The translations under genes were made by a program, and so were the position numbers. A DNA stretch of 37,799 nucleotides from Saccoglossus kowalevskii (Eukaryota > Hemichordata > Enteropneusta > Harrimaniidae), in assembly GCF_000003605.2 (NCBI RefSeq), contig NW_003150975.1, forward strand, positions 1 to 37,799, given 5' to 3'. Of this stretch, positions 1 through 37,799 are shown piece by piece. How positions within the stretch are numbered: the first letter of the stretch is position 1; the number at the start of each line of letters is the position of its first letter. The notes beneath the pieces were generated by a model. It was not told the DNA's origin. It saw only the letters and a list, made by a program, of their open reading frames with translations, and did no database searches.

Positions 1-239
1 AAAGTTTGTGTATATGTTTAGGTGTACTCTATATATGCCAATAAATCAATGAATGCAGTGCCATGAATTATATTAGGTATGTTTATATGTTATTATCCAC
101 GCAATTACTTTACGTTATAATTAGTGTTATTATGCAACTACCAAAACGTCTTTCATGTTGGGCTGCAAAAACAAACATTATTTTAAAAATTGCATGTGCA
201 TAGTTTCCCAACGTTATTTTATTTTATTTCATTTTGCAG

Positions 240-491
240 AAAAAGCAGGGACTTCAAATGGGATGATGAGTATTGTAATGACATCAGAACAAAAGGTTAT
301 ATTTGTGAAAAACAAGGTACGTTTCCGTCATATAAATAACCACAACAAATTATCTACTTAAAACTTAATCTGTAACTGAAAAGACTTGTCAACATGAACT
401 ATTTTAGACAATATTTTAAGCAATAAGCTGTTGTTATATGTACAATTTTTCATTTTTTTTTTCAGTTTGCAACTTCTGTGATACTTGTTAG
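240..491 (+). CDS. Lectin gene A0, 3' end only (last two coding exons)
   Basis: Exon 5 is 240-316 and the last coding exon is 466-491 (TAG at 489-491). The rest lies upstream of the window. Exon 5 encodes the C-terminal part of a C-type lectin domain: KWDD, then EYC, then GYICE, with the last two conserved cysteines of the fold. It follows a TTTTGCAG acceptor and ends at CAAG|GTACGT. Entry is phase 2 and exit phase 1, as in A1. The micro-exon completes a Val codon and adds CNFCDTC before the stop. AATAAA is at 591-596. Sequence matches A1-A4, so the gene is probably intact upstream, but that cannot be seen. Confidence 0.85.
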
Positions 492-596
492 ATCGTCAAC
501 ACCAATTACACAACCAACGTATTGTGACAACCCGATGACCATAGGTCTACATTAATTAGAATATATCATTCTGTATCTGCATGCTGTACTAATAAA

Positions 597-3291
597 ACAG
601 ATCATCCTATAGACATAAAGTGTGTTTATTTAATACTCGCTATAAAACTCATCGCCACATCATCTTCCATCTTCCATTTTGATTAGGGTATCGTTAACTA
701 TAATATATGACATCATTTTCATGCAGTGTGGGAAGTAGATGACACATACCACAAACTCCAAAACCACAAAACCGATTTCTGAAAGTGCCAGTATTGAGGC
801 CAATACTGAATTAATTTTCCATTTACTTAGTCTGCCAAGAGTTATATGATCTTCGCCACTGAACTGCGTGAGTTGCTTTTAAGCAATGTAAATTGTTTGA
901 CTCACACTGATAATAAGATGGAACAATAAGACAGCACATACAGAATTCTTATGAACTCCTAACAAATACCACTCACAATTAGGTTGGCTTAAAAAATAAG
1001 CAAGGTATTTTCCAAATTAATTGAACAAAGTATAAATGATACAGGTTATGGTGTATCCACAAAATTTTTTAAAGCAGACTTGTGGACTTACAGATGAAAA
1101 TGTATTTGTTGACGTGGCAAAGACTTGATCATTTGAGCCGCGTAACGTACATATGATGTTGAGAATGATAATTTATGGCTGTAGATATGATTGACCATCA
1201 TCCATTCGAGTGTTTTATCTACTGATTTCTATTACTATGGGAGTGAAAGTATCAAGTGTTACTGTGGTGTTCCAAATGAAAATATCAGTCACGTGAATGG
1301 TGTTATTTTATATTCCCACTCTGCGACCAGCATTACTTTTACGATTGTTATAAAGCATAACTGTTGGGCATTTTAAATAAACATAAATAAATGAGAACAA
1401 GAATAGTGTTTCCCAATTTCGTGTTGTAATACTTCCCATGTATTTCATATGGGTTTTTTTCATAAAAACTATGTATTTGTATGTAATTTATGCGACTGTG
1501 TCAATGTCGGTTAGCTCTTGTAAAGCTCTTCCCTGTGACTCTCACTTCAGACGATTACAATGAAAAATAAAATATGAAAAACAATAAGCAAAAGATGTTG
1601 GCCAGTTTGAATATTTTGTCAATCTACAAGCAGTAATGTACCCCATACAGAGACGTATATGTATGAAAAGTAGTGTCTGAATAATATGACATCACCAAAT
1701 TAACATATTACAATTAAGAAGCAGAACAGCACAATTATCTCAGAATTGACATTGAGATAAGTCAACAGAAATAAGCAGTCACTGTATACAACCAAAAAGC
1801 ATATTCATTGAACTGATTTGAACGTTACTAGCTCTAAACATTATAGAATGGGACGTGAATGAAAATTGTAAATACAAGTAATTGCCTGCGTACTTGAAAG
1901 CATGCATAGCTTGGAAATCTTATGTAAGGTGGCACTATACAAGTGAAAACTAACTATTGGAAACAACAATACAACTCTTATATAGGAGGTTGCCATGTTT
2001 TTCTGTCGAAAAGTACCATCCCAAAAGATCCATGACAAAGTAAAAAAGAAGCCTGATAACAAAGAATGAGAACTTGATGGACCAATCAGAATGCCGGAAC
2101 CATTACTAGTTACCGGCCTCTTGTAGCTTGGTGCGCCATAACACTTTAGGCGGTAACCTACCGAAGACGTAACCCTCACGATGAAAACGAAAGTACACAC
2201 CATGGACAATGATAAAACATAGAGGGCAGATTGCAACGAAATTGTATTTATTTATTTATGAAATAAACAAATCTGATTGGTCCTTGAACGCAATTTGATA
2301 TTGCGACACCACCAACAATTCAACCAATAAACATATCTATTTTAATGACGAGACAAAACATTTTTGTGGAAACTTTTATGATCAATCTTAATGTTCTACC
2401 GATACTTTTACTCATTCACCAATACACCAATTGTTTTAAATTTAATTTTAAGATTCCTCTCCAAGCTCCCTCCTCTGAACTGCCACTACTGTTTGTCAAT
2501 TTACTGTTACGATGTGTGAAGAAGACTAATATAACTAGCACACAGTTTAGTTCTAATGTGTCTCTAATACATTAAATGTATCGATAATTTGTTTAACTTC
2601 AGCCGATAAACTGGCCGTAATTACGTAATGCGTTGATGCGTAATGACTTGCAGAGAAGTTGCCGGAAACACTGCAGCAAACTCCAACGTTTACTTACGCA
2701 ACTCTTTATGAAGGTTATAGCATCATACATCCTAGAAGATTGTGTCATGACCTCCGCCCTCTATAGTTGAACTAGCTTATTACATGGTAATGATTAAATT
2801 TGTATATTGAGCTGACTGACACTTACTTAAACATTATTAATAGTACACGATGTCACTTCTAGGGTTTGTTTGTATATGAAACACAGTCACAATAATTCAC
2901 CTAATACATGTGTAAAATTAAATACTTTTGTGTCTTTTTTTCACTTTTTGAATGTTTTTAATTTATTTTTCATGTCTGGGATATCATCTTTGTGTAATTG
3001 CTTGTTCTATTGCAACACATTGTAAAATAATTTAACTCTTGTTTGAGTCCCGTAATAGACAATACTTCGTGTGTTTACGCTATAGTCATTGATTACGGCA
3101 GGTGAATATCGGTACCTTTCAAAAATTTATACTGTAATATTTCACCCACTTGTGCTATACTAATGAAGTAAATAATGATGATGAGTCTACATCAGATAAC
3201 ACAGGTGTACATCTTTAAGACAGTAGTATATATTGTGATGAGTGTACTACTTAGATATGAAATAAGACACACATTATACGTCCATATCAGC
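597..3291. other. Tail-to-tail spacer of unit 1 (A0 to B1)
   Basis: No supported gene. It has an 8-bp perfect hairpin (789-808). It lacks the 434-bp segment seen in other units (junction 1129/1130). A 12-bp inverted repeat GGACCAATCAGA is at 2079-2090 and 2272-2283. An overlapping palindrome cluster at 2616-2628 includes TTACGTAA at 2621-2628. Open frames here (1191-1376 +, 1841-2236 -, 2345-2575 +) differ between units mainly by amino-acid-changing substitutions, so they are not treated as genes. Confidence 0.7.
789..808. other. Short perfect hairpin downstream of gene A
   Basis: CAGTATTG and its reverse complement CAATACTG are separated by AGGC, about 190 nt past the A0 poly(A) signal. It is retained in the other units (for example 8375-8394). 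It might act in termination or be chance; the stem is only 8 bp. Confidence 0.4.
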
Positions 3292-3387
3292 TTTATTGTA
3301 TTAGTTTAGCATGCAAATACAGAAATTAGATCTACAAAAAATATGTAGCCCCATGGCCACCGAACTACAACAATGCGTCGATTGTAT

Positions 3388-4948
3388 TCATGGTTCTGGG
3401 CATTTAGAACAGCTGCAAGCTGAAATAAAACAACAACGAAAATTTAACGTCATTTTCAAAAAATAAAAACGCATAATACGAACAATGACGTCATATTAGT
3501 ATTAGTATGCCAATTCTACGATAATTGCCAGTTTTAATGTTTAATATTATATAAATACAAAACAGTGCTAGTCATGCCTGCCATCAAAACCGCACATGAG
3601 CACACATACTTGTACTTGCCTGTACCTCTCTCAATACCCTTCTCTCAAGTTGAATCTTACATGTTGTTATGACCCACATAAGATTGCGTTTTAATTGAAT
3701 AAAAATGCAACAAAGTAGAAACAACATTATACATGTTGTAACTTAAGATAGAAATGTTAGTAAAAGGTGTAAACATCAGTGTCGCATTATTACACACTAA
3801 CATACCTTGTACTTCACAAATGAAACCCTTCTCTCTGATATCAACACCAGTGCAATATTCATCATCCCATTTAAAGTCTGTTGTTTTTCTACAAAGACAA
3901 CAAATTACAATATAATTTACCTATCTGTATAAACAGTAAACACTAGATGTGACCGCCATCGTGAAATAAAAAGTAAATAATGTGCATACGTTGTACATAC
4001 AATAACAAACACATATATTTGGTCGTACAACCGAATATGGGCGAATACAACTTTCATTTGTTTATATCGGACATAGTAGCATTGTAATGAAAGCAGGAAA
4101 ATATATACTAATATGATTGGCATAAGAATACCACACCGTATATACAGGCAGTATTGGATCGCATCGATTACGCTCCTGTCATCAAAATAACTGTTGTTGA
4201 TACCTGTGGTATTCTTACAATAATCTTATATTTAGGGATGGATGAAAGATGGCCAAATATTTTGTCTATGGCTATCATACTCACCTCAGTTGACCACAGT
4301 CCTGACCCTGCGGGTTTTTATTAGTGTTGTTATCTGGTTCCCCTTCACCCCAGTTTGTGTAACACACCTCTCCACCATTAATCCATTTAAAGTTGTCCTC
4401 TTCATTTCTATCGTTCAGGCCAATCCAAAATCCAGTATCAACCTGATCACCTAAGCCACTGTCTCTTATGTATTGTGTGATAAAATCATCTGTGCGTTTG
4501 TCGGGAATTCGTGCCAAGGTTCCTCCAAGACTAGCACATTCAGCTATTGCTTCATCCCAAGTATAGCTTCCAGCGACAATATGGTACTCCACAGCTACGT
4601 GGTTACTAATTGTGTATGCTGTAATTGAATAAAACATGTATTTTTAATTGTGTTTAGATTGTTTTGTTAACGTGTAAAGTAAACAGAACCTAGTTGCAGT
4701 AACAACAATATGTTTAGCTACATTTCAAAAATATGTCTTACTTACATTTCAAAAATATGTATTAACTACATTAAAAAAATATGTATTAACTACATTACAA
4801 AAATATGTCTTAGCTACATTTCAATAATATGTATTAACTACTTTTCATTGGTATATTAAAGGTATACTTGTATAATAAAGGCTTACATACCATGAGTAGA
4901 GAACACACATGATACCAGGACGAATAGGGTAATGTTAATAATCTTCAT
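3388..4948 (-). CDS. Secreted C-type lectin, gene B1 (168 aa)
   Basis: Coding exons in transcript order are 4948-4891 (ATG at 4948), 4618-4285, 3888-3806 and 3419-3388 (TGA at 3390-3388). A non-coding leader exon lies at 5139-5106. All introns are GT-AG and coding phases are 1, 2, 1. AATAAA is at 3297-3292. The protein starts MKIINITLFVLV, a typical secretion signal. Next comes a short-form CTLD: TWDEAI helix and first cysteine, ARIPDKRTDD, FWIGLNDR, VCYTNW, the calcium-loop motif EPD, GQDC, KWDD, EYC and FICE. A separate exon adds the tail CSCSKCPEP. In CTLDs the EPN/EPD and WND positions bind calcium and sugar. Here EPD replaces EPN, QDC replaces EDC and WDD replaces WND, so sugar specificity is uncertain. 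An extra cysteine sits in VCYTNW. It diverges from A1 across an 844-bp gap between start sites. Confidence 0.87.
4715..4858. repeat. 24-bp minisatellite, about 6 copies, in B1 intron
   Basis: Six diverged 24-bp copies of roughly TARCTACATTWCAAAAATAT plus GTMT, with copies starting at 4715, 4739, 4763, 4787, 4811 and 4835. It fills most of the B1 intron between the signal-peptide exon and the CTLD exon, where gene A carries its cassette exon. Counterparts start at 12702, 20727, 28756 and 36746 with the same copy number and small indels, so the repeat predates the array. Confidence 0.85.
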
Positions 4949-5138
4949 CTTGATACCAGAACTGAAAAATATCTAAATGTTCGGGAAGTTCAATAACTAA
5001 GTTAAATAACATTTAAGTGAATGTTTAATGTGTGTTGAATTGAATAACGATATTTGTAGACGGTTTATGCAGTATTCGAGAGTGACAAGTCAGATTTATA
5101 CTTACCTGATGACTTCTTCTCTGTCGGACAGTGCAGTG

Positions 5139-5170
5139 TGGCCTAGCATGAACACTAAGGCGAATTTATA
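5139..5170 (-). promoter_or_regulatory. Core promoter of B1 (TATA box and start motif)
   Basis: On the minus strand TATAAAT (5170-5164) lies 31 nt upstream of an initiator-like CCACACT with its A at 5139. The predicted leader exon 5139-5106 begins ACACTGC, contains GAGAAGAAG and ends ATCAG|GTAAGT. It joins 4961 through a TTTTTCAG acceptor, giving a short leader without an upstream ATG. An ATG at about 5152 lies upstream of the predicted start site. Confidence 0.72.
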
Positions 5171-5983
5171 GAACTTCCAGTGTACAAAACAACAAATACA
5201 TCTATAATCTACTTGAGGCGAGATTCTTTTATTCGTGAATTCAGAATTTTTACGAAATGGCTATGCTAATAGGTTCGTGTCACTGATGATACTAGAAAGC
5301 GCGTTTGGAAGCGCGAGATGAACACGTGTTTGTTATCAGTGGGCCTTGTGAGTGCACGTTCGTGGGAGAAAAACTTCTGAAAACATGACCTGTCTATACT
5401 GCCTCAAAAAGCGTGATGACGATTATAGTTTAGTTCATTTGTATAGGTCTTTTTATCTCAGGAATTTTGTTTTTGGTAACGAATTGCAATGTTCAAATAA
5501 TTTTATATTCTACACTGAGATGTTGGCAAAATATTTTAGATGTCTTGTTATAATAATGTTATGTCACATAATATGCAAGTTGTGTAAAAATGTAACAGTA
5601 ATGATTAGTATGTGAAATCTGCCTGCAAAAATGTCCACGAATTATCCTGGCATTCCTTTATGGAAACACACAGATGATGAAGACGATATTTGGTAATTCT
5701 AAAATTTGCTTTACCAAACAATTATTATCACGCTTTTAAAAGAGATGCTCATTTTGCAAAATCGTTTTCCTGCTTAATTATGATTCATTTGTTTTGAATA
5801 TATGCTTTCAATGTACAATAATGACAAACATGTGTTTCAATAGACTATTTAAACACAATAACTGACACGAATTCTTGCAAAAAAAAACATATTTTTAATA
5901 TTTGCATATTCTCTGATACTCAATCATTGTAACAAGTAGATTTTTGATAGCAAATAGTTGTGCGGTTTGCACGATTAAACATT
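5171..5983. promoter_or_regulatory. Shared divergent promoter region, B1/A1
   Basis: About 813 bp between the two TATA boxes. The clearest cluster is 5281-5341: inverted arms CACTGAT (5281-5287) and ATCAGTG (5335-5341), two AAGCGCG repeats spaced 12 bp (5297, 5309), and a palindromic E-box AACACGTGTT (5321-5330). The right arm includes a GATA-type TGATAA on the minus strand. An open frame at 5352-5615 runs through here, but it starts at GTG and is broken in unit 5, so it is not called. The rest is AT-rich with no recognised element. Confidence 0.55.
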
Positions 5984-6015
5984 TATAAATACGCTGATGT
6001 GTTCGCGTTAAGTCA
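5984..6015 (+). promoter_or_regulatory. Core promoter of A1 (TATA box and start motif)
   Basis: TATAAAT at 5984-5990 lies exactly 31 nt before the A of TCACACT (6015). The leader exon 6015-6052 begins ACACTGC, contains GAAGAAGAAG and ends ATAC|GTAAGT. Its 775-bp intron (6053-6827) ends TTTTTATAG, with a second possible AG at 6837. Motif, spacing and leader composition match B1, so promoter and leader were probably duplicated together with the gene. Confidence 0.75.
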
Positions 6016-6052
6016 CACTGCGTGAACTAAGAGGAAGAAGAAGCACTCATAC

Positions 6053-6827
6053 GTAAGTATATCTCTATTCATTTGGTTTGAATCCTGTGATATATTTGTT
6101 TCTTTCTGTCATTTATATTAACACTATGAATATGATCACATTGATGCTGCACAGTATTGTCCCTAAGAAACCAGTAACTGAATTATCAGCTCATGTATTC
6201 CTTTATATGCACAATTTACTTGGAGTATATTACTTAAAAAACAGGCCGATTTTACACATGGCGCCAATGAAACCATTAAACAAATTAAAATCTCTAAACA
6301 AACAGTTTCATAACTGTGTTGAAATTTCCAAAAAAATGAAGTCGCTTCATTTACAGTATTGGCAGTCCGCTATTTGGCTTTAGCTTAAATTAAACTGACA
6401 AACCTGTTTTGTTGTCAAGTTAATTAGAACAGTTTGGATTAGAAATTAAACCGGACTCATAAGACTGTGAAACATATACCGTCCCGTATGTATTCTGTTC
6501 TTGACGCATTTCTATTTTGCAATGCAATAAACTTGTTAGTCAGTCCAGAAGACAGTGTGACGCGCCTCGAGCGAGGGAGAGTCCTGCTAATGATGATATG
6601 AAAATGTGTTTGTATTTTTCTGTTTCATGTCATTTGTGTTTCAAATATAAAACCCTCGTGTTGATATATCCATTTAGAATTCATTAAATCTATTTTAAAT
6701 TCATATTACAGCGGAGAAAGCATATCTTAAATGTTATGTAGTGATTCTTTGTTTAACACATACTCTACTAATCACGTCTTTTACATTCCTTCATGTTCAT
6801 AATTTGACTGTACATATATTTTTATAG
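6053..6827 (+). other. Leader intron of A1
   Basis: Runs from GTAAGT at 6053 to TTTTTATAG at 6827. It contains a 98-101-codon open frame (6078-6383) whose five differences between units all change the amino acid and whose start is not ATG; it is judged non-coding. A 12-bp hairpin CCTCG-AG-CGAGG lies near 6565 and is mutated in unit 3. Nothing else was recognised. Confidence 0.6.
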
Positions 6828-6850
6828 CGCCGCTCAGTTCTTTTATCACC

Positions 6851-8076
6851 ATGAAGTGTACAATCTTTACCCTCATTTTGGTCAGCACGATATCCTGCAT
6901 ATATTCTGTTCATGGTATGTATAGAAATTGAAATTATTATTGTATAATTTACCTACTGGGTTTGTGTGCAACCTATAGTCATTAGAACAATGATAGTTTT
7001 TCGTCTTGTATGGACAACTATAATGCAACTACATTAACCACAGTACCTTACTGAATAATATTATTGTTCCCATTGCAGCAAAGATGTTTCATCGACTGAC
7101 TTTATATATCCCGTCCCGGTCGTTTTCTGCCTATGACAGACCAGTTTCAAATAATTGTGATTACGGTAAATAACACATTCAACAACGTTCGAAACAATTA
7201 TATATTTTCTCCATTGCAGGACATGTGCTTCTAAATCACGTTGTCGTGGAGTATGAAATCTACACTGATGCAGTTACTTGGGATGAAGCAATACAAAGAT
7301 GTGAAAGTGAGAATGGACAATTGGCCAGGATTCCCGATAAACGCACAGACGATCTTCTCAGAGATTATATATACTACTCTGGGGCTAACAATTCGGTTGA
7401 AACTGGGTTTTGGATTGGTCTGAACGACAGAGCTACCGAAAATACATTTGTGTGGCTCAATGGTGGACCCGTTTGTTACACAAACTGGGCTAAAGACGAA
7501 CCAAACAATAACACCAAGCGTAACGCAGCTGAGGGCCAAGATTGTGCACAACTGAGGTGAGTTTACAAATGATAACCTGAAAGTTTGTGTATATGTTTAG
7601 GTGTTACTCTAATATATGCCAATAAATCAATGAATGCAGTGCCATGAATTATATTAGGTATGTTTATATGTTATTATCCACGCAATTACTTTACGTTATA
7701 ATTAGTGTTATTATGCAACTACCAAAACGTCTTTCATGTTGGGCTGCAAAAACAAACATTATTTTAAAAATTGCATGTGCATAGTTTCCCAACGTTATTT
7801 TATTTTGTTTTATTTCATTTTGCAGAAAAAGCAGGGACTTCAAATGGGATGATGAGTATTGTAATGACATCAGAACAAAAGGTTATATTTGTGAAAAACA
7901 AGGTACGTTTCCGTCATATAAATAACCACAACAAATTATCTACTTAAAACTTAATCTGTAACTGAAAAGACTTGTCAACATGAACTATTTTAGACAATAT
8001 TTTAAGCAATAAGCTGTTGTTATATGTACAATTTTTCATTTTTTTTTCAGTTTGCAACTTCTGTGATACTTGTTAG
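6851..8076 (+). CDS. Secreted C-type lectin, gene A1 (196 aa, or 167 with exon 3 skipped)
   Basis: Coding exons are 6851-6914 (signal peptide), 7079-7165 (cassette), 7220-7556, 7826-7902 and 8051-8076 (TAG 8074-8076). A leader exon is at 6015-6052 and AATAAA at 8176-8181. Phases are 1, 1, 2, 1 and the joined frame has no internal stop. The ATG has A at -3 (ATCACCATG). The protein has a signal peptide (MKCTIFTLILVSTISC), a cassette ending SNNCDYG, then a CTLD: TWDEAI, ARIPDKRTDD, FWIGLNDR, VCYTNW, EPN, EGQDC, KWDD, EYC and GYICE, and the tail VCNFCDTC. The cassette cysteine fits the first cysteine of long-form CTLDs, but the usual partner position is Val. EPN suggests mannose-type calcium and sugar binding; QDC and WDD depart from the usual EDC and WND. 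A sequon NNT overlaps the calcium loop. Confidence 0.88.
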
Positions 8077-8181
8077 ACCGTCAACACCAATTACACAACC
8101 AACGCATTGTGACAACCCGATGACCATAGGTCTACATTAATTAGAATATATCATTCTGTATCTGCATGCTGTACTAATAAA

Positions 8182-11100
8182 ACAGATCATCCTATAGACA
8201 TTAAAGTGTGTTTATTTAATACTCGCTATAAAACTCATCGCCACATCATCTTCCATCTTCCATTTTGATTAGGGTATCGTTAACTATAATATATGACATC
8301 ATTTTTATGCAGTGTGGGAAGTAGATGACACATACCACAAACTCCAAAACCACAAAACCGATTTCTGAAAGTGCCAGTATTGAGGCCAATACTGAATTAA
8401 TTTTTCATTTACTTAGTCTGCCAAGAGTTATATGATCTTCGCCACTGAACTGCGTGAGTTGCTTTTAAGCAATATAAATTGTTTGACTCACACAGATAAT
8501 AAGACGGAACAATAAGACAGCACATACAGAATTCTTATGAACTCCTAACAAATACCACTCACAATTAGATTGGCTTAAAAAATAAGCAAGGTATTTTCCA
8601 AATTAATTGAATAAAGTATGAATGATACAGGTTATGGTGTATCCACAAAAGCACCTGAATTTTTTAAAGCAGACTTGTGGACTTACAGATGAAAATGTAT
8701 TTGTTGACGTGGCAAAGACTTGATTTTTTCAGTGATTTTCTTGTTTTGTCTGGTTTTTCTTTGCCACTTCTGCAACACTCGGAAAACTGATTTCCGTCTT
8801 TCTCTCTCTCCCAGCATACAGCTCAAGATGCTTTCAATATGTTGCTCACCAATGACTACCCAAGTTTTAACAATATCCAGCAGTTACCAATTCAAATTTA
8901 TCACAGTCATCACAGACTGTTCACACTGTGTGCAAGTGCGAATTGAAGCACATAACGGAGATTTTTCTCTTTATGAGTTAGACTGACCTTCTCATCGAAG
9001 GTACTATATGCATTACAGCCTTGTTCAGAACAAAAAATGTCTACAAATATAGAATACGTCGTGATATATTAGAAAGGGTGACACGTGTTGGAAGTAGTCA
9101 AATACAAGTTAATCGCTAGATGTGTGAAAAAAACCTGGCTTCCGCTTATGGATACAATCATTTGAGCCGCGTAACGTACATATGATGTTGAGAATGATAA
9201 TTTATGGCTGTAGATATGATTGACCATCATCCATTCGAGTGTTTTATCTACTGATTTCTATTACTATGGGAGTGAAAGTATCAAGTGTTACTGTGGTGTT
9301 CCAAATGAAAATATCAGTCACGTGAATGGTGTTATTTTATATTCCCACTCTGCGACCAGCATTACTTTTACGATTGTTATAAAGCATAACTGTTGGGCAT
9401 TTTAAATAAACATAAATAAATGAGAACAAGAATAGTGTTTCCCAATTTCGTGTTGTAATACTTCCCATGTATTTCATATGTTTTTTTTTCATAAAAACTA
9501 TGTATTTGTATGTAATTTATGCGACTGTGTCAATGTCGGTTAGCTCTTGTAAAGCTCTTCCCTGTGACTCTCACTTCAGACGATTACAATGAAAAATAAA
9601 ATATGAAAAACAATAAGCAAAAGATGTTGGCCAGTTTGAATATTTTGTCAATCTACAAGCAGTAATGTACCCCATACAGAGACGTATATGTATGAAAAGT
9701 AGTGTCTGAATAATATGACATCACCAAATTAACATATTACAATTAAGAAGCAGAACAGCACAATTATCTCAGAATTGACATTGAGATAAGTCAACAGAAA
9801 TAAGCAGTCACTGTATACAATCAAAAAGCATATTCATTGAACTGATTTGAACGTTACTAGCTCTAAACATTATAGAATGGGACGTGAATGAAAATTGTAA
9901 ATACAAGTAATTGCCTGCGTACTTGAAAGCATGCATAGCTTGGAAATCTTATGTAAGGTGGCACTATACAAGTGAAAACTAACTATTGGGAACAACAATA
10001 CAACTCTTATATAGGAGGTTGCCATGTTTTTCTGTCGAAAAGTACCATCCCAAAAGATCCATGACAAAGTAAAAAAGAAGCCTGATAACAAAGAATGAGA
10101 ACTTGATGGACCAATCAGAATGCCGGACCCATTACTAGTTACCGGCCTCTTGTAGCTTGTGCGCCATAACACTTTAGGCGGTAACCTACCGAAGACGTAA
10201 CCCTCACGATGAAACGAAAGTACACACCATGGACATGATAAACATAGAGGGCAAGATTGCACGAAATTGTATTTATTTATTTATGAAATAAACAAATCTG
10301 ATTGGTCCTTGAACGCAATTTGATATTGCGACATCACCAACAATTCAAACCAATAAACATACTATTTTAATGACGAGACAAAACATTTTTGTTGAAACTT
10401 TTATGATCAATCTTAATGTTCTACCGATACTTTTACTCATTCACCAATACACCAATTGTTTTAAATTTAATTTTAAGACTCCTCTCCAAGCTCCCTCGTC
10501 TGAACTGCCACTACTGTTTGTCAATTTACTGTTACGATGTGTGAAGAAGACTAATATAACTAACACACAGTTTAGTTCTAATGTGTCTCTAATACATTAA
10601 ATGTATCGATAATTTGTTTAACTTCAGCCGATAAACTGGCCGTAATTACGTAATGCGTTGATGCGTAATGACTTGCAGAGAAGTTGCCGGAAACACTGCA
10701 GCAAACTCCAACGTTTACTTACGCAACTCTTTATGAAGGTTATAGCATCATACATCCTAGAAGATTGTGTCATGACCTCCGCCCTCTATAGTTGAACTAG
10801 CTTATTACATGGTAATGATTAAATTTGTATATTGAGCTGACTGACACTTACTTAAACATTATTAATAGTACACGATATCACTTCACCTAATACATGTGTA
10901 AAATTAAATACTTTTGTGTCTTTTTTTTCACTTTTTGAATGTTTTTAATTTATTTGTCATGTCTGGGATATCATCTTTGTGTAATTGCTTGTTCTATTGC
11001 AACACCTTGTAAAATAATTTAACTCTTTTTTGAGTCCCGTAATAGACAATACTTCGTGTGTTTACGATAGGGTCATTGATTACGGCAGGTGAATATCGGT

Positions 11101-27200: not shown

Positions 27201-27331
27201 TAATGAAGTAAATAATGATGATGAGTCTACATCAGATAACACAGGTGTACATCTTTAAGACAGTAGTATATATTGTGATGAGTGTACTACTTAGATATGA
27301 AATAAGACACACATTATACGTCTATATCAGC
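24215..27331. other. Tail-to-tail spacer of unit 4 (A3 to B4)
   Basis: No supported gene. The 434-bp segment is of the unit-5 type, clearly diverged from units 2 and 3 around 24785-24890. The frame at 24743-24949 is specific to this type and starts at TTG. Right-hand variants resemble unit 1. Confidence 0.68.
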
Positions 27332-27428
27332 TTTATTGTATTAGTTTAGCATGCAAATACAGAAATTAGATCTACAAAAAAATATGTAGCCCCATGGCCA
27401 CCGAACTACAACAATGCGTCGATTGTAT

Positions 27429-28990
27429 TCATGGTTCTGGGCATTTAGAACAGCTGCAAGCTGAAATAAAACAACAACGAAAATTTAACGTCATTTTCAA
27501 AAAATAAAAACGCATAATACGAACAATGACGTCATATTAGTATTAGTATGCCAATTCTACGATAATTGCCAGTTTTAATGTTTAATATTATATAAATACA
27601 AAACAGTGCTAGTCATGCCTGCCATCAAAACCGCACATGAGCACACATACTTGTACTTGCCTGTACCTCTCTCAATACCCTTCTCTCAAGTTGAATCTTA
27701 CATGTTGTTATGACCCACATAAGATTGCGTTTTAATTGAATAAAAATGCAACAAAGTAGAAACAACATTATACATGTTGTAACTTAAGATAGAAATGTTA
27801 GTAAAAGGTGTAAACATCAGTGTCGCATTATTACACACTAACATACCTTGTACTTCACAAATGAAACCCTTCTCTCTGATATCAACACCAGTGCAATATT
27901 CATCATCCCATTTAAAGTCTGTTGTTTTTCTACAAAGACAACAAATTACAATATCATTTACCTATCTGTGTAAACAATAAACACTGGATGTGACCGCCAT
28001 CGTGAAATAAAAAGTAAATAATGTGCATACGTTGTACATACAATAACAAACACATATATTTGGTCGTACAACCGAATATGGGCGAATACAACTTTCATTT
28101 GTTTATATCGGACATAGTAGCATTGTAATGAAAGCAGGAAAATATATACTAATATGATTGGCATAAGAATACCACACCGTATATACAGGCAGTATTGGAT
28201 CGCATCGATTACGCTCCTGTCATCAAAATAACTGTTGTTGATACCTGTGGTATTCTTACAATAATCTTATATTTAGGGATGGATAAAAGATGGCCAAATA
28301 TTTTATCTATGGCTATCATACTCACCTCAGTTGACCACAGTCCTGACCCTGCGGGTTTTTATTAGTGTTGTTATCTGGTTCCCCTTCACCCCAGTTTGTG
28401 TAACACACCTCTCCACCATTAATCCATTTAAAGTTGTCCTCTTCATTTCTATCGTTCAGGCCAATCCAAAATCCAGTATCAACCTGATCACCTAAGCCAC
28501 TGTCTCTTATGTATTGTGTGATAAAATCATCTGTGCGTTTGTCGGGAATTCGTGCCAAGGTTCCTCCAAGACTAGCACATTCAGCTATTGCTTCATCCCA
28601 AGTATAGCTTCCAGCGACAATATGGTACTCCACAGCTACGTGGTTACTAATTGTGTATGCTGTAATTGAATAAAACATGTATTTTTAATTGTGTTTAGAT
28701 TGTTTTGTTAACGTGTAAAGTAAACAGAACCTAGTTGCAGTAACAACAATATGTTTAGCTACATTTCAAAAATATGTCTTACTTACATTTCAAAAATATG
28801 TATTAACTACATTAAAAAAATATGTATTAACTACATTACAAAAATATGTCTTAGCTACATTTCAATAATATGTATTAACTACTTTTCATTGGTATATTAA
28901 AGGTATACTTGTATAATAAAAGGCTTACATACCATGAGTAGAGAACACACATGATACCAGGACGAATAGGGTAATGTTAATAATCTTCAT
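27429..28990 (-). CDS. Secreted C-type lectin, gene B4
   Basis: Exons are 28990-28933, 28659-28326, 27929-27847 and 27460-27429. The leader exon is 29181-29148, joined at 29003, and the poly(A) signal is at 27337-27332. Coding sequence matches B1 with no amino-acid change seen in the CTLD or tail. The intron next to exon 4 has a small cluster of substitutions near 27956-27988. With B1 it is the most intact of the B genes. Confidence 0.87.
28756..28899. repeat. 24-bp minisatellite in B4 intron
   Basis: Same six-copy array as in B1, no change in copy number. Confidence 0.8.
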
Positions 28991-29180
28991 CTTGATACCA
29001 GAACTGAAAAATATCTAATGTTCGGGAAGTCCAATAACTAAGTTAAATAACATTTAAGTGAATGTTTTAATGTGTGTTGAATTGAATAACGATATTTGTA
29101 GACGGTTTATGCAGTATTCGAGAGTGACAAGTCAGATTTATACTTACCTGATGACTTCTTCTCTGTCGGACAGTGCAGTG

Positions 29181-29212
29181 TGGCCTAGCATGAACACTAA
29201 GGCGAATTTATA
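29181..29212 (-). promoter_or_regulatory. Core promoter of B4
   Basis: Minus-strand TATAAAT (29212-29206), start A at 29181, intact. Confidence 0.7.
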
Positions 29213-30023
29213 GAACTTCCAGTGTACAAAACAACAAATACATCTATAATCTACTTGAGGCGAGATTCTTTTATTCGTGAATTCAGAATTTTTACGAAAT
29301 GGCTATGCTAATAGGTTCGTGTCACTGATGATACTAGAAAGCGCGTTTGGAAGCGCGAGATGAACACGTGTTTGTTATCAGTGGGCCTTGTGAGTGCACG
29401 TTCGTGGGAGAAAAACTTCTGAAAACATGACCTGTCTATACTGCCTCAAAAAGCGTGATGACGATTATAGTTTAGTTCATTTGAATAGGTCTTTTTATCA
29501 CAGGAATTTTGTTTTTGGTAACGAATTGCAATGTTCAAATAATTTTATATTCTACACTGAGATGTTGGCAAAATATTTTAGATGTCTTGTTATAATAATG
29601 TTATGTCACATAATATGCAAGTTGTGTAAAAATGTAACAGTAATGATTAGTATGTGAAATCTGCCTGCAAAAATGTCCACGAATTATCCTGGTATTCTAT
29701 TATGGAAACACACAGATGATGAAGACGATATTTGGTAATTCTAAAATTTGCTTTAACAAACAATTATTATCACGCTTTTAAAAGAGATGCTCATTTTGCA
29801 AAATCGTTTTCCTGCTTAATTATGATTCATTTGTTTTGAATATATGCTTTCAATGTACAATAATGACAAACATGTGTTTCAATAGACTATTTAAACACAA
29901 TAACTGACACGAATTCTTGTAAAAAAATATATTTTTAATATTTGCATATTCTCTGATACTCAATCATTGTAACAAGTAGATTTTTGATAGCAAATAGTTG
30001 TGCGGTTTGCACGATTAAACATT
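29213..30023. promoter_or_regulatory. Shared divergent promoter region, B4/A4
   Basis: Same layout as unit 1. Private changes lie at 29484 (GAATAGG for GTATAGG) and near 29692-29700. Confidence 0.5.
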
Positions 30024-30055
30024 TATAAATACGCTGATGTGTTCGCGTTAAGTCA
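30024..30055 (+). promoter_or_regulatory. Core promoter of A4
   Basis: TATAAAT at 30024-30030 and start A at 30055, intact. The leader exon runs 30055-30092. Confidence 0.72.
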
Positions 30056-30890
30056 CACTGCGTGAACTAAGAGGAAGAAGAAGCACTCATACGTAAGTAT
30101 ATCTCTATTCATTTGGTTTAAATCCTGTGATATATTTGTTTCTTTCTGTCATTTATATTAACACTATGAATATGATCACATTGATGCTGCACAGTATTGT
30201 CCCTAAGAAACCAGTAACTGAATTATCAGCTCATGTATTCCTTTATGTGCACAATTTACTTGGAGTATATTACTTAAAAAACAGGCCGATTTTACACATG
30301 GCGCCAATGAAATCATTAAACAAATTAAAATCTCTAAACAAACAGTTTCATAACTGTGTTGAAATTTCCAAAAAAATGAAGTCGCTTCATTTACAGTATT
30401 GGCAGTCCGCTATTTGGCTTTAGCTTAAATTAAACTGACAAACCTGTTTTGTTGTCAAGTTAATTAGAACAGTTTGGATTAGAAATTAAACCGGACTCAT
30501 AAGACTGTGAAACATATACTGTCCCGTATGTATTCTGTTCTTGACGCATTTCTATTTTGCAACGCAATAAACTTGTCAGTCAGTCCAGAAGACAGTGTGA
30601 CGCGCCTCGAGCGAGGGAGAGTCCTGCTAATGATGATATGAAAATGTGTTTGTATTTTTCTGTTTCATATCATTTGTGTTTCAAATATAAAACCCTCGTG
30701 TTGATATATCCATTTAGAATTCATTAAATCTATTTTAAATTCATATTACAGCGGAGAAAGCATATCTTAAATGTTATGTAGTGATTCTTTGTTTAACACA
30801 TACTTTACTAATCACGTCTTTTACATTCTTTCATGTTCATAATTTGACTGTACATATATTTTTATAGCGTCGCTCAGTTCTTTTATCACC

Positions 30891-32111
30891 ATGAAGTGTA
30901 CTATCTTTACCCTCATTTTGGTCAGCACGATATCCTGCCTATATTCTGTTCATGGTATGTATAGAAATTGAAATTATTATTGTATAATTTACCTACTGGG
31001 TTTGTGTGCAACCTATAGTCATTAGAACAATGATAGTTGTTCGTCTTGTATGGACAACTATAATGCAACTACATTAACCACAGTACCTTACTGAATAATA
31101 TTATTGTTCCCATTGCAGCAAAGATGTTTCATCGACTGACTTTATATATCCCGTCCCGGTCGTTTTCTGCCTATGACAGACCAGTTTCAAATAATTGTGA
31201 TTACGGTAAATAACACATTCAACAACGTTCGAAACAATTATATACTTTCTTCAATTCAGGACATGTGCTTCTAAATCACGTTGTCGTGGAGTATGAAATC
31301 TACACTGATGCAGTTACTTGGGATGAAGCAATACAAAGATGTGAAAGTGAGAATGGACAATTGGCCAGGATTCCCGATAAACGCACAGACGATCTTCTCA
31401 GAGATTATATATACTACTCTGGTGCTAACAATTCGGTTGAAACTGGGTTTTGGATTGGTCTGAACGACAGAGCTACCGAAAATACATTTGTGTGGCTCAA
31501 TGGTGGACCCGTTTGTTACACAAACTGGGCTAAAGACGAACCAAACAATAACACCAAGCGTAACGCAGCTGAGGGCCAAGATTGTGCACAACTGAGGTGA
31601 GTTTACAAATGATAACCTGAAAGTTTGTGTATATGTTTAGGTGTTACTCTAATATATGCCAATAAATCAATGAATGCAGTGCCATGAATTATATTAGGTA
31701 TGTTTATATGTTATTATCCACGCAATTACTTTACGTTATAATTAGTGTTATTATGCAACTACCAAAACGTCTTTCATGTTGGGCTGCAAAAACAAACATT
31801 ATTTTAAAAATTGCATGTGGATAGTTTCCCAACGTTATTTTATTTTATTTCATTTTGCAGAAAAAGCAGGGACTTCAAATGGGATGATGAGTATTGTAAT
31901 GACATCAGAACAAAAGGTTATATTTGTGAAAAACAAGGTACGTTTCCGTCATATAAATAACCACCACAAATTATCTACTTAAAACTTAATCTGTAACTGA
32001 AAAGACTTGTCAACATGAACTATTTTAGACAATATTTTAAGCAATAAGCTGTTGTTATATGTACAATTTTTCATTTTTTTTTCAGTTTGCAACTTCTGTG
32101 ATACTTGTTAG
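30891..32111 (+). CDS. Secreted C-type lectin, gene A4
   Basis: Exons are 30891-30954, 31119-31205, 31260-31596, 31861-31937 and 32086-32111. The acceptor before the ATG exon is at 30867 and AATAAA is at 32211-32216. The encoded protein equals A3, with the Ile to Leu signal-peptide change and a silent ACA to ACT. The acceptor of the main CTLD exon reads TTTCTTCAATTCAG instead of TTTTCTCCATTGCAG. It still ends in CAG after a pyrimidine-rich stretch, so it should work, but the four clustered changes may alter cassette inclusion. It appears intact. Confidence 0.88.
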
Positions 32112-32216
32112 AACGTCAACACCAATTACACAACCAACGTATTGTGACAACCCGATGACCATAGGTCTACATTAATTAGAATATATCATTCTGTATCTGC
32201 ATGCTGTACTAATAAA

Positions 32217-35200
32217 ACAGATCATCCTATAGACATAAAGTGTGTTTATTTAATACTCGCTATAAAACTCATCGCCACATCATCTTCCATCTTCCATTTT
32301 GATTAGGGTATCGTTAACTATAATATATGACATCATGTTCATGCAGTGTGGGAAGTAGATGACACATACCACAAACTACAAAACCACAAAACCGATTTCT
32401 GAAAGTGCCAGTATTGAGGCCAATACTGAATTAATTTTCCATTTACTTAGTCTGCCAAGAGTTATATGATCTTCGCCACTGAACTGCGTGAGTTGCTTTT
32501 AAGCAATGTAAATTGTTTGACTCACACTGATAATAAGATGGAACAATAAGACAGCACATACAGAATTCTTATGAACTCCTAACAAATACCACTCACAATT
32601 AGGTTGGCTTAAAAAATAAGCAAGGTATTTTCCAAATTAATTGAACAAAGTATAAATGATACAGGTTATGGTGTATCCACAAAATTTTTTAAAGCAGACT
32701 TGTGGACTTACAGATGAAAATGTATTTGTTGACGTGGCAAAGACTTGATTTTTTCAGTGATTTTCTTTGCCACTTCTGCAACACTCGGAAAACTGATTTC
32801 CGTCTTCCACTCTCTCAGCAAACAGTTCAAGATGCTTTCAACATGTTTGCTCACCGATGACTACCTAAGTTTTAACAATATCCAGCAGTCACCAATTCAA
32901 ATTTATCACAGTCATCACAGACTGTTCACACTGTGTGCAAGTGCGAATTGAAGCACATAACGGAGATTTTTCCCTTTATAAGTTAGACTGACCTTCTCAT
33001 CGAAGGTACTATATGCATTACAGCCTTGTTCAGAACAAAAAATGTCTACAAATATAGAACACGTCGTGATATATATTAGAAAGGGTGACTCGTGTTGGAA
33101 GTAGTCAAATACAAGTTAATCGCTAGATGTGTGAAAGAAACCTGGCTTCTGCTTATGGATACAATCATTTTAGCCGCGTAACGTACATATGATGTTGAGA
33201 ATGATAATTTATGGCTGTAGATATGATTGACCATCATCCATTCGAGTGTTTTATCTACTGATTTCTATTACTATGGGAGTGAAAGTATCAAGTGTTACTG
33301 TGGTGTTCCAAATGAAAATATCAGTCACGTGAATGGTGTTATTTTATATTCCCACTCTGTGACCAGCATTACTTTTACGATTGTTATAAAGCAGAACTGT
33401 TGGGCATTTTAAATAAACATAAATAAATGAGAACAAGAATAGTGTTTCCCAATTTCGTGTTGTAATACTTCCCATGTATTTCATATGGGTTTTTTTCATA
33501 AAAACTATGTATTTGAATGTAATTTATGCGACTGTGTCAATGTCGGTTTGCTCTTGTAAAGCTCTTCCCTGTGACTCTCACTTCAGACGATTACAATGAA
33601 AAATTAAATATGAAAAACAATAAGCAAAAGATGTTGGCCAGTTTGAATATTTTGTCAATCTACGAGCAGTAATGTACCCCATACAGAGACGTATATGTAT
33701 GAAAAGTAGTGTCTGAATAATATGACATCACCAAATTAACATATTACAATTAAGAAGCAGAACAGCACAATTATCTCAGAATTGACATTGAGATAAGTCA
33801 ACAGAAATAAACAGTCACTGTATACAATCAAAAAGCATATTCATTGAACTGATTTGAACGTTACTAGCTCTAAACATTATAGAATGGGACGTGAATGAAA
33901 ATTGTAAATACAAGTAATTGCCTGCGTACTTGAAAGCATGCATAGCTTGGAAATCTTATGTAAGGTGGCACTATACAAGTGAAAACTAACTATTGGGAAC
34001 AACAATACAACTCTTATATAGGAGGTTGCCATGTTTTTCTGTCGAAAAGTACCATCCCAAAAGATCCATGACAAAGTAAAAAAGAAGCCTGATAACAAAG
34101 AATGAGAACATGATGGACCAATCAGAATGCCGGAACCATTACTAGTTACCGGCCTCTTGTAGCTTGGTGCGCCATAACACTTTAGGCGGTAACCTACCGA
34201 AGACGCAACCCTCACGATGAAAACGAAAGTACACACCATGGACAATGATAAAACATAGAGGGCAGATTGCAACGAAATTGTATTTATTTATTTATGAAAT
34301 AAACAAATCTGATTGTTCCTTGAACGCAATTTGATATTGCGACATCACCAACAATTCAACCAATAAATATATCTATTTTAATGACGAGACAAAACATTTT
34401 TGTGGAAACTTTTATGATCAATCTTAATATTCTACCGATACTTTTACTCATTCACCAATACACCAATTGTTTTAAATTTAATTTTAAGATTCCTCTCCAA
34501 GCTCCCTTGTCTGAACTGCCACTACTGTTTGTCAATTTCCTGTTACGATGTGTGAAGAAGACTAATATAACTAACACACAGTTTAGTTCTAATGTGTCTC
34601 TAATACATTAAATGTATCGATAATTTGTTTAACTTCAGCCGATAAACTGGCCGTAATTACGTAATGCGTTGATGCGTAATGACTTGCAGAGAAGTTGCCG
34701 GAAACACTGCAGCAAACTCCAACGTTTACTTACGCAACTCTTTATGAAGGTTATAGCATCATACATCCTAGAAGATTGTGTCATGACCTCCGCCCTCTAT
34801 AGTTGAACTAGCTTATTACATGGTAATGATTAAATTTGTATATTGAGCTGACTGACACTTAAACATTATTAATAGTACACGATGTCACTTCTAGGGTTTG
34901 TTTGTATATGAAACACAGTCACAATAATTCACCTAATACATGTGTAAAATTAAATACTTTTGTGTCTTTTTTTCACTTTTTGAATGTTTTTAATTTATTT
35001 GTCATGTCTGGGATATCATCTTTGTGTAATTGCTTGTTCTATTGCAACACCTTGTAAAATAATTTAACTCTTGTTTGAGTCCCGTAATAGACAATACTTC
35101 GTGTGTTTACGCTAGAGTCATTGATTACGGCAGGTGAATATCGGTACCTTTCAAAAATTTATACTGTAATATTTCACCCACTTGTGCTATACTAATGAAG

Positions 35201-35323
35201 TAAATAATGATGATGAGTCTACATCTGATAACACAGGTGTACATCTTTAAGACAGTAGTATATATTGTGATGAGTGTACTACTTAGATATGAAATAAGAC
35301 ACACATTATACGTCCATATCAGC
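32217..35323. other. Tail-to-tail spacer of unit 5 (A4 to B5)
   Basis: No supported gene. Its left part resembles units 1 and 4 (no GCACCTGAA insertion). Its right part resembles unit 3 (GTTCC near 34315, CATCTGATAAC near 35223). TACTTAC is shortened near 34857. Confidence 0.68.
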
Positions 35324-35419
35324 TTTATTGTATTAGTTTAGCATGCAAATACAGAAATTAGATCTACAAAAAATATGTAGCCCCATGGCCACCGAACTAC
35401 AACAATGCGTCGATTGTAT

Positions 35420-36978
35420 TCATGGTTCTGGGCATTTAGAACAGCTGCAAGCTGAAATAAAACAACAACGAAAATTTAACGTCATTTTCAAAAATAAAAA
35501 CACATAATACGAACAATGACGTCATATTAGTATTATTATGCCAATTCTACGATAATTGCCAGTTTTAATGTTTAATATTATATAAATACAAAACAGTGCT
35601 AGTCATGCCTGCCATCAAAACCGCACATGAGCACACATACTTGTACTTGCCTGTACCTCTCTCAATACCCTTCTCTCAAGTTGAATCTTACATGTTGTTA
35701 TGACCCACATAAGATTGCGTTTTAATTGAATAAAAATGCAACAAAGTAGAAACAACATTATACATGTTGTAACTTAAGATAGAAATGTTAGTAAAAGGTG
35801 TAAACATCAGTGTCGCATTATTACACACTAACATACCTTGTACTTCACAAATGAAACCCTTCTCTCTGATATCAACACCAGTGCAATATTCATCATCCCA
35901 TTTAAAGTCTGTTGTTTTTCTACAAAGACAACAAATTACAATATAATTTACCTATCTGTATAAACAGTAAACACTAGATGTGACCGCCATCGTGAAATAA
36001 AAAGTAAATAATGTGCATACGTTGTACATACAATAACAAACACATATATTTGGTCGTACAACCGAATATGGGCGAATACAACTTTCATTTGTTTATATCG
36101 GACATAGTAGCATTGTAATGAAAGCAGGAAAATATATACTAATATGATTGGCATAAGAATACCACACCGTATATACAGGCAGTATTGGATCGCATCGATT
36201 ACGCTCCTGTCATCAAAATAACTGTTGTTGATACCTGTGGTATTCTTACAATAATCTTATATTTAGGGATGGATAAAAGATGGCCAAATATTTTGTCTAT
36301 GGCTATCATACTCACCTCAGTTGACCACAGTCCTGACCCTGCGGGTTTTTATTAGTGTTGTTATCTGGTTCCCCTTCACCCCAGTTTGTGTAACACACCT
36401 CTCCACCATTAATCCATTTAAAGTTGTCTTCTTCATTTCTATCGTTCAGGCCAATCCAAAATCCAGTATCAACCTGATCACCTAAGCCACTGTCTCTTAT
36501 GTATTGTGTGATAAAATCATCTGTGCGTTTGTCGGGAATTCGTGCCAAGGTTCCTCCAAGACTAGCACATTCAGCTATTGCTTCATCCCAAGTATAGCTT
36601 CCAGCGACAATATGGTACTCCACAGCTACGTGGTTACTAATTGTGTATGCTGTAATTGAATAAAACATGTATTTTTAATTGTGTTTAGATTGTTTTGTTA
36701 ACGTGTAAAGTAAACAGAACCTAGTTGCAGTAACAACAATATGTTTAGCTACATTTCAAAAATATGTCTTACTTACATTTCAAAAATATGTATTAACTAC
36801 ATTAAAAGAATATGTATTAACTACATTACAAAAATATGTCTTAGCTACATTTCAATAATATGTATTAACTACTTTTCATTGGTATATTAAAGGTATACTT
36901 GTATAATAAAGGCTTACATACCATGAGTAGAGAACACAATGATACCAGGACAAATAGGGTAATGTTAATAATCTTCAT
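35420..36978 (-). pseudogene. C-type lectin gene B5 with a 1-nt deletion in the signal-peptide exon
   Basis: Exons are 36978-36922 (57 nt, against 58 in B1-B4), 36649-36316, 35919-35837 and 35451-35420. The leader exon is 37169-37136 and the poly(A) signal is at 35329-35324. On the + strand GAACACACATGA of the others reads GAACACAATGA (about 36931-36941). With the normal donor the frame shifts and a TAG appears eight codons into the next exon. A second donor, GTAAGC, lies 4 nt downstream (GTAT|GTAAGC); using it would give 61 nt and restore the frame with a changed end to the signal peptide. The CTLD exons are intact, with one silent GAG to GAA. A consensus error in CACACA is possible, so pseudogene status is provisional. 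Confidence 0.6.
36746..36889. repeat. 24-bp minisatellite in B5 intron
   Basis: Same array as in B1, with an A to G change in the third copy. Confidence 0.78.
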
Positions 36979-37168
36979 CTTGATACCAGAACTGAAAAAT
37001 ATCTAAATGTTCGGGAAGTTCAACAACTAAGTTAAATAACATTTAAGTGAATGTTTAATGTGTGTTGAATTGAATAACGATATTTGTAGACGGTTTATGC
37101 AGTATTCGAGAGTGACAAGTCAGATTTATACTTACCTGATGACTTCTTCTCTGTCGGACAGTGCAGTG

Positions 37169-37200
37169 TGGCCTAGCATGAACACTAAGGCGAATTTATA
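37169..37200 (-). promoter_or_regulatory. Core promoter of B5
   Basis: Minus-strand TATAAAT (37200-37194), start A at 37169, intact despite the coding lesion in the gene. Confidence 0.68.
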
Positions 37201-37799
37201 GAACTTCCAGTGTACAAAACAACAAATACATCTATAATCTACTTGAGGCGAGATTATTTTATTCGTGAATTCAGAATTTTTACGAAATGGCAATGCTAAT
37301 AGGTTCGTGTCACTGATGATACTAGAAAGAGCGTTTGGAAGCGCGAGATGAACACGTGTTTGTTATCAGTGGGCCTTGTGAGTGCACGTTCGTGGGAGAA
37401 AAACTTCTGAAAACATGACCTGTCTATACTGCCTCAAAAAACGTGATGACGATTATAGTTTAGTTCATTTGTATAAGTCTTTCTATCTCACGATTTTTTT
37501 TCCGGAACGAATCTACACAGAGATGTTACGTAATATTTTAGATGTCTTGCTGTAATAATGTTATGTCACATAATATGCAAGTTGTGTAAAAATGTAACAA
37601 TAATGATTAGTTTGTGAAATCTGACTGACAAAATGTTCACGAATCATCCTTGGCATTCCTTTTGTGGAAACACATAGATGATGAAGACGATATTTGGTAA
37701 TTCTAAAATTTGTTTTAACACACAATTATTATCATGCTTTTAAAAGAGATACTCATTTTGCAAATCGTTTTCCTGCTCAATTTTGATTCAGTTTGTTTT
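37201..37799. promoter_or_regulatory. Upstream region of B5, diverging towards the window end
   Basis: Similar to unit 1 until about 37440, with early changes at 37257, 37292 and 37330 (one GCGC repeat broken). Beyond that there are dozens of differences and a loss of about 26 bp near 37515 relative to the other units. The A5 promoter is not reached. Confidence 0.6.

Follow-up and report, generated by a model that had tools for sequence, protein, structure and literature searches.

What selects for, and preserves, a tandem array in which two divergently transcribed lectin genes are multiplied as one cassette is the question raised by this locus of Saccoglossus kowalevskii. The window, the whole stretch of 37,799 bases analysed here, corresponds to contig C4110 and is array throughout, comprising 4.77 tandem copies of a unit of about 8 kb, with both contig ends falling inside units. 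The reading favoured here, at a probability of roughly 0.65, is a two-gene cassette under concerted evolution, in which duplication, amplification and exchange between units would combine with a two-way promoter and disulfide-linked lectin dimers.

The units measure 7,579, 7,985, 8,024 and 8,031 bp, followed by a unit truncated at 6,180 bp where the contig stops. Each full unit carries one minus-strand gene (B) and one plus-strand gene (A), arranged head to head. C4110 thus contains five B genes, four complete A genes and the tail of another A, of which exon 4 and the exon 5 coding sequence remain (240-491, plus strand), the left end of the contig lying inside that gene and its CTLD exon being absent from the contig; the right end is the promoter of a fifth A. 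The original prediction placed a pair in each of five units of about 8 kb; the tandem units are real, but complete pairs number four and the fifth B stands alone.

In unit 1 a tail-to-tail spacer (620-3280) is followed by gene B1 (3388-5138, minus strand; exons 5106-5138, 4891-4961, 4285-4618, 3806-3888 and 3388-3419), a head-to-head promoter region (5139-6012) with the TATA of B at 5170 (minus) and that of A at 5984 (plus), and gene A1 (6013-8076, plus strand; exons 6013-6052, 6838-6914, 7220-7556, 7826-7902 and 8051-8076). Unit 2 comprises B2 (11376-13125, minus), whose frame is open and whose CTLD has one residue change, Leu to His, the promoter region (13126-13998) and A2 (13999-16060, plus; frame open). 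Unit 3 presents B3 (19401-21149, minus), in which the exon-5 acceptor AG is changed to AA at 19433, the promoter region (21150-22021) and A3 (22022-24109, plus), while unit 4 presents B4 (27429-29180, minus; frame open), the promoter region (29181-30052) and A4 (30053-32111, plus); A3 and A4 are both open and share an Ile to Leu change in the signal peptide. The last unit holds B5 (35420-37168, minus), with a 1-bp deletion near 36938 in the signal-peptide exon, and a promoter region cut by the contig end (37169-37799). An extra gene between the lectin genes is unsupported: two reading frames in the unit-1 spacer and two in introns (4 of 95 frames) gave Pfam matches below the cut-off or none, and an Rfam search of the window gave no match.

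A second contig, C3820, represents the left array edge and carries another B (B0), an A that the end of the contig truncates and a broken edge A, bringing the B genes over the two contigs to at least six. The consensus is noisy in places, with several 1-bp indels in the last part of C3820, and consensus error may account for some of the differences seen between units.

The A1 product (167 residues) displays a CTLD with an EPN motif and ends in the tail CNFCDTC, while the B1 product (168 residues, frame open) has an EPD motif and the tail CSCSKCPEP. Both match Lectin_C (PF00059) well above the cut-off of 22.6 bits, at 70.1 bits for A and 74.7 bits for B. With hydrophobic N termini, taken as putative signal peptides, a single Lectin_C domain each and opposite strands, the anticipated head-to-head pair of secreted single-CTLD lectin genes was recovered. 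The segment FWIGLNDR (WIGL motif) is present in both proteins, as are four cysteines (49, 130, 146 and 156 in A; 47, 127, 143 and 155 in B), which we take to be the core cysteines of the CTLD. The WND position reads WDD, and the residue before the third core cysteine is Gln, where Glu would presumably be expected by comparison with mannose-binding protein. The cysteine-rich C-terminal tails follow the patterns CxxCxxC in A (CNFCDTC) and CxCxxC in B (CSCSKC). Such tails may belong to the family at large, as a solitary B-like paralogue on C3472 possibly has a similar one, the likeness being weak. EPD is able to support mannose binding, according to PMC12842671.

The A and B 3' UTRs gave no support for a structured RNA (fold z-scores of 0.17 and 0.50). 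An 87-nt in-frame stretch between A exons 2 and 3 is open in all four copies, and with 1 of 87 sites variable its constraint is not evident and an optional exon is not established. Peptides of the lectins themselves found no match in a literature text search.

A and B are identical at 97 of 163 aligned residues (60%), with dS of 1.08 and dN of 0.33, and none of the four aligned A/B introns outscores the best of its 100 shuffles. Aligned from upstream of the TATA through exon 1, the two genes score 74, versus 44 for the best of 300 single-base shuffles. The genome listing gives at least 147 Lectin_C matches, in which divergent neighbours no more than 6 kb apart number four, all in the array; outside it, the matches listed include 25 same-strand neighbours, one convergent and no divergent pair. 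A and B are evidently the products of an old inverted duplication, promoter included. One secreted C-type lectin gene was duplicated head to head long ago, giving A with EPN and B with EPD, and tandem amplification of the resulting cassette then produced the units of about 8 kb.

The first exons of A and B lie about 870 bp apart and, in unit 1, TATA to TATA measures 814 bp. Six 9-mers in three blocks are shared between the promoter arms; they keep their order, and their distances from each TATA agree to within 10 bp; by chance the count averages 0.14 with a maximum of 4 in 2,000 shuffles, the count having been made after the blocks were already seen in the promoter-exon 1 alignment. When the two 380-bp upstream arms are compared by plain local alignment, the score beats shuffled sequence only mildly, 17 of 500 shuffles reaching it. 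The head-to-head region varies at 10 of 872 sites and introns and spacers at 102 of 5,310, a modest difference. A few matching elements thus appear in mirror order, suggesting one two-way control region common to A and B, and they predict co-expression, which is likely. On the favoured reading this stretch of about 0.87 kb would act as a promoter in both directions, with matching elements oriented towards each gene, the two lectins would be made in the same cells, and copy number would multiply the output of both.

How well are the copies preserved? The claim that the main CTLD exon of A differs only silently among units held, since 2 of 337 columns vary across four copies that encode the same protein. 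The B coding sequence shows 3 substitutions in about 505 bases across five copies, two of them silent. Over units 1-4, 5 of 1,007 coding sites vary, versus 102 of 5,310 intron and spacer sites (Fisher p 4.6e-4). Indels, foreseen for the spacers, measure 438, 39, 25, 25 and 20 bp and lie outside coding exons; the 438-bp stretch is absent from the unit 1 spacer and present in units 2-5. Lesions in the window affect 2 of 5 B genes versus 0 of 4 complete A genes. For the lost acceptor of B3 two alternatives were read, splicing at a cryptic AG that lies 5 nt further and retention of the intron, and each loses the CSCSKC tail; the B5 frameshift brings a stop after 26 residues. Together with the broken edge A, these lesions show that some copies escape upkeep by selection or exchange.

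It is possible, if doubtful, that the array amplifies the dose of A, selection acting mainly on the amount of A while B is carried as a passenger and slowly lost. The damage to B3 and B5, with every complete A in the window intact, would fit such a history. However, B still looks constrained, B0 on C3820 is identical to B1 across all five exons, the edge A on C3820 is itself broken, and consensus error may lie behind 1-bp indels.

Another possibility is that A and B form an obligate heterodimer, the pair staying together because each product depends on its partner for stability or activity, and we regard it with similar doubt. Its precedent is the Anopheles CTL4/CTLMA2 pair, described in PMC6811590 as a disulfide heterodimer of secreted single-CTLD lectins encoded by closely linked back-to-back genes, with an N-terminal CXCXC in each and CTL4 without calcium binding. 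Both systems comprise two secreted single-CTLD lectins, back-to-back genes and a tri-cysteine motif outside each CTLD. The mirrored promoter elements also favor obligate pairing. In contrast, the mosquito has one pair and a proven heterodimer, while S. kowalevskii has an array, a putative dimer and both EPN and EPD; an N-terminal CXCXC of the CTL4/CTLMA2 type is absent from A and B, whose motifs are C-terminal. The net charge of both mature proteins is negative (-9 and -14 at pH 7), a comparison of whole proteins rather than of the charged loops that matter in CTL4/CTLMA2, and two of five B copies in the window are damaged, which is ill suited to a strict 1:1 need.

Small secreted single-CTLD lectins of bivalves (codakine, SPL-1/SPL-2) likewise occur in large expanded repertoires with EPN and EPD motifs, and both homo- and heterodimers linked by disulfides are known (PMC12842671 and PMC10140915). 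Clam SPL-1, an A/B disulfide heterodimer, favors obligate pairing, but codakine and SPL-2 are homodimers (PMC12842671). They resemble A and B in size, secretion, single CTLD and motifs; their kinship with A and B is not established, and the passages covered mention no divergent-pair array.

The original prediction suggested that the two products are needed together, for example as a mixed oligomer, or else that dose matters, which it may. The mirrored elements, the cysteine tails in both proteins and the Anopheles precedent speak for joint need, and the B lesions and the shared negative charge against it. Co-amplification by itself is no proof of joint function, and is weak evidence of joint need, as a cassette carries its partner along whether needed or not. 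What survives is that a mixed A/B oligomer is possible. In the favoured reading, as its least certain step, small acidic secreted A and B would be disulfide-linked through their tails into homo- or heterodimers that bind two sugar patterns, somewhat unlike each other, in a setting such as mucus or body fluid.

For the array itself the closest parallel is the late chorion HcA/HcB locus of the silkmoth Bombyx mori, for which PMC4639761 describes tandem head-to-head divergent pairs of eggshell protein genes (in one strain, 21 pairs whose genes lie about 330 nt apart), a common promoter region, gene conversion, highly conserved coding and flanking DNA, and interspersed pseudogenes. The lectin array likewise displays tandem head-to-head paralogous pairs, a shared promoter region of predicted activity and, as site patterns suggest, conversion between units; it differs in its product, its spacing of about 870 bp and its at least six B genes over two contigs. 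Its architecture is a chorion-type homogenised divergent-pair array, while the proteins do not belong to the chorion family, the Pfam listing at E up to 1 giving no family other than Lectin_C for either. The full combination, an obligate heterodimeric immune or mucus lectin with EPN and EPD sites joined by C-terminal tri-cysteine motifs, its genes amplified, co-regulated and homogenised in chorion style, is unlikely.

Divergence between units is 0.7-1.9%, and its patchy distribution, with patterns in conflict, fits exchange between copies. At 27 informative sites, neighbours share the same split 15 times, versus a mean of 3.8 and a maximum of 11 in 10,000 shuffles, and of 351 site pairs 173 cannot be placed on one tree. 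With the C3820 unit added, 35 sites give 8 like neighbours versus a mean of 2.9 (reached in 37 of 10,000), and 299 of 595 pairs are incompatible. It is improbable that recent serial tandem duplication alone, without later exchange, produced these units: their low divergence is compatible with youth and the longest shared-tract test is weak (p < 0.05 in 2 of 10 unit pairs, uncorrected), but about half of the informative site pairs fit no single tree, recurrent mutation is a poor excuse with only one triallelic column, the splits cluster along units, and divergence changes abruptly at both array edges. At the right edge the final ~360 bp of C4110 (from about 37,440) are ~9% divergent from other units. 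Among the matches listed, the last 370 bases hit C4110, C3820 and C3286, and no contig joining the right end was found. C3286 holds two older cassette copies that look broken; stretches of C2133, C1613, C4071 and C1270, considered as edges or relatives, are without DNA match to the array and contain distant lectins only.

That mis-assembly or haplotype joining multiplied one or two real pairs is highly improbable. In its favor, C4110 is all array with both ends inside units, and some 1-bp homopolymer indels resemble consensus noise; against it, every unit has private substitutions and indels of up to 438 bp and a further unit on C3820 adjoins a flank (88,000-111,200 searched) that has no match to the array and holds a P450 gene. 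The array is real, and its predicted homogenisation is upheld by the clustered conflicts, abrupt edges and decayed outer copies: the copies are apparently kept alike by exchange. In the two-gene cassette reading, unequal crossing-over and gene conversion would keep inner units alike to within about 1%, while edge copies and copies elsewhere would drift and break.

When a lectin family has expanded, the usual interpretation is a diverse repertoire for recognising many microbes. Here, conversely, several copies of one A and one B are kept alike, a pattern that points to quantity and a constant pairing and not to variety, and with edge, inner and decayed copies comparable in one genome it offers a natural test of exchange preserving a two-gene unit.

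A single tandem repeat of ~8 kb fills the window, which corresponds to the complete contig C4110 (37,799 bp) of a genome of 572 Mb and 4,830 contigs. Self-comparison reveals 4.77 units, at positions 1-7579, 7580-15564, 15565-23588, 23589-31619 and 31620-37799, the last cut by the contig end. Pairwise substitution differences between units range from 0.69 to 1.86%, or from 0.55 to 1.41% once the divergent terminal part of unit 5 is excluded together with all columns that follow it. The G+C content of the window is ~34%. B genes are encoded by the minus strand and A genes by the plus strand. Head-to-head lectin pairs in ~8-kb units, as originally predicted, are thus present, although there are four complete pairs rather than five, the contig starting within one A gene and stopping in the promoter of another.

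The models of A and B, which are predicted from uninterrupted reading frames, splice sites and the resemblance of A to B, display the same order of exons: a noncoding exon, a signal-peptide exon, two CTLD exons (the main one, then a second with the stretch KWDDEYC...ICE) and a short last exon for a cysteine-rich tail. The predicted A protein has 167 residues with the tail CNFCDTC, and the predicted B protein has 168 residues with the tail CSCSKCPEP. Lectin_C is the sole Pfam family listed for either protein, and matches to solved CTLDs in the PDB (E <= 0.001) comprise 105 distinct sequences for A and 117 for B. The tripeptide EPN is found in A and EPD in B, while WDD replaces the usual WND in both. 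Since the N terminus is hydrophobic in both proteins and no other stretch is strongly hydrophobic, secretion is the natural reading of the predicted sequences. A candidate optional A exon of 87 nt is located at 7079-7165, 15064-15150, 23088-23174 and 31119-31205 in units 1-4. It runs from phase 1 to phase 1, has AG and GT ends, is open in all four copies and would add 29 residues, including a cysteine, ahead of the CTLD; constraint on it was not evident in the four copies and no B counterpart was noticed. Intron 2 of B contains a 24-bp tandem repeat of ~6 copies, at 4703-4847 and at the equivalent place in all five units.

The main CTLD exon of A was proposed to vary only at silent bases, and this holds in the four copies, in which 2 of 337 columns are variable and the protein is identical. 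Complete A coding sequences have four variable sites with one amino-acid change, located in the signal peptide, and the five B copies present three substitutions, one of which replaces Leu by His in B2. In units 1-4, 5 of 1,007 coding sites vary against 102 of 5,310 in introns and spacers (Fisher p 4.6e-4), and 2 of 7 coding substitutions are nonsynonymous (binomial p 0.013 for an assumed proportion of 0.75). Coding DNA is therefore under constraint, yet B carries lesions in two of its five copies: B5 has a 1-bp deletion, and B3 no longer has an acceptor site for exon 5. A consensus error may explain the B5 deletion, since the consensus appears noisy in two other places: five indels of 1-2 bp, private to unit 2 and probably noise, cluster at 10158-10361, and three 1-bp differences occur in the CTLD exon of A0, in the final part of contig C3820. 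The B3 lesion, being a substitution, appears harder to explain in this way.

Comparison of the five units yields 27 informative sites in 7 splits, and 173 of the 351 site pairs are incompatible with one tree. Equal splits cluster, with 15 neighbours alike against a shuffled mean of 3.8 and a maximum of 11 (10,000 shuffles). Inclusion of the C3820 unit gives 35 sites, 14 splits, 299 incompatible pairs of 595 and 8 neighbours alike against a mean of 2.9, a value reached in 37 of 10,000 shuffles. A test of the longest shared tract gives a weak result, with two of the ten unit pairs below 0.05. Combined, these results suggest that gene conversion or unequal crossing-over fits the unit patterns better than a simple duplication tree.

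We infer that C3820 (121,420 bp, examined from 88,000 to its end) and C4110 are parts of one array, the left part of which starts at ~113,590 and occupies the right end of C3820. There, the edge A copy has an in-frame stop and a 3-bp deletion in its CTLD exon, the five exons of B are all identical to those of B1, and the last A is truncated by the contig end. Left of 113,590, similarity to the array persists in scattered pieces of 77-80% identity, down from ~97%, apart from one 89-bp piece at 95%; within the examined region no match was found left of 111,217, and a cytochrome P450 gene, recognised by matches to two exons, lies still further left. At the right end of C4110, near 37,440, divergence rises abruptly from ~1% to ~9%. 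The first 40 kb of contig C3286 (186 kb) contain two older A/B cassettes in opposite orientation, ~10 kb apart, at 5.4-10.9 kb and 21.0-25.5 kb, in pieces of 75-94% identity. All four of their genes are apparently damaged (tblastn, blastn): one B lacks the first part of the CTLD, and the other B and both A genes carry stops or frameshifts. Abrupt edges and decay outside are as expected if exchange keeps the inner copies alike.

The A and B proteins are identical at 97 of 163 aligned positions (dS ~1.08, dN ~0.33). None of the four introns aligns above the best of 100 shuffles, intron 3 coming near (49 versus 53), but the stretch from upstream of the TATA to just beyond the first splice site scores 74 against a shuffle maximum of 44 (300 shuffles), and the 3' UTRs (A, 8077-8230; B, 3271-3387) score 80 against 34 (200 shuffles); no stable RNA fold was found in these UTRs. 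Further upstream, the short blocks ATCACGCTTTT, TGACACGAA and CAAGTAGATT occur in the same order and at nearly the same distance from the TATA in both genes. Their count was reached by none of 2,000 shuffles in a test devised after the blocks had been noticed. Plain local alignment of the two 380-bp upstream arms is only mildly above chance (17 of 500 shuffles). These likenesses, with unlike introns, indicate that the A/B duplication took in the promoter and that some elements were retained on both sides, so that co-expression of A and B is likely.

A genome search for Lectin_C, with 150 of 480 candidates scored, returned at least 147 matches. Among the matches listed, divergent neighbours that lie on one contig and no more than 6 kb apart number four, all in this array, while outside C4110 and C3820 neighbours are same-strand in 25 cases, some of which may be domains of one gene, convergent in one and divergent in none. 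Seven same-strand matches, among those listed, form a run at 116-162 kb of contig C1416, possibly a second lectin array of the ordinary direct type. At 195-200 kb of C1613, two A-like lectins, 4.5 kb apart, are oriented towards one another, and a KWDDDYC or QWDDEYC exon is present in both. A lone B-like lectin lies at ~161.9 kb of C3472, and its possible last exon, with a weak acceptor, ends in FYCKCPQCK. This candidate tail is tri-cysteine, like that of B, and such tails may therefore be common to the family.

An A/B mixed oligomer is a fair hypothesis by analogy, because two precedents exist. Anopheles CTL4 and CTLMA2 are described as products of back-to-back genes joined via tri-cysteine motifs (PMC6811590), and clam SPL-1 as a disulfide-linked A/B heterodimer (PMC12842671). 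Lesions in B and a net charge that is negative in both A and B count against a strict 1:1 need of the CTL4/CTLMA2 kind. Large lectin expansions are described in bivalves (PMC10140915), and among the open-access papers listed by the literature searches, no title or displayed abstract mentions a lectin array with divergent pairs or concerted evolution. The silkmoth chorion HcA/HcB arrays, as outlined in PMC4639761, display the same architecture, with conversion and pseudogenes. The best-supported mechanism for the hemichordate locus is a copy-number array that would produce A and B jointly from two-way promoters, with exchange maintaining its uniformity.
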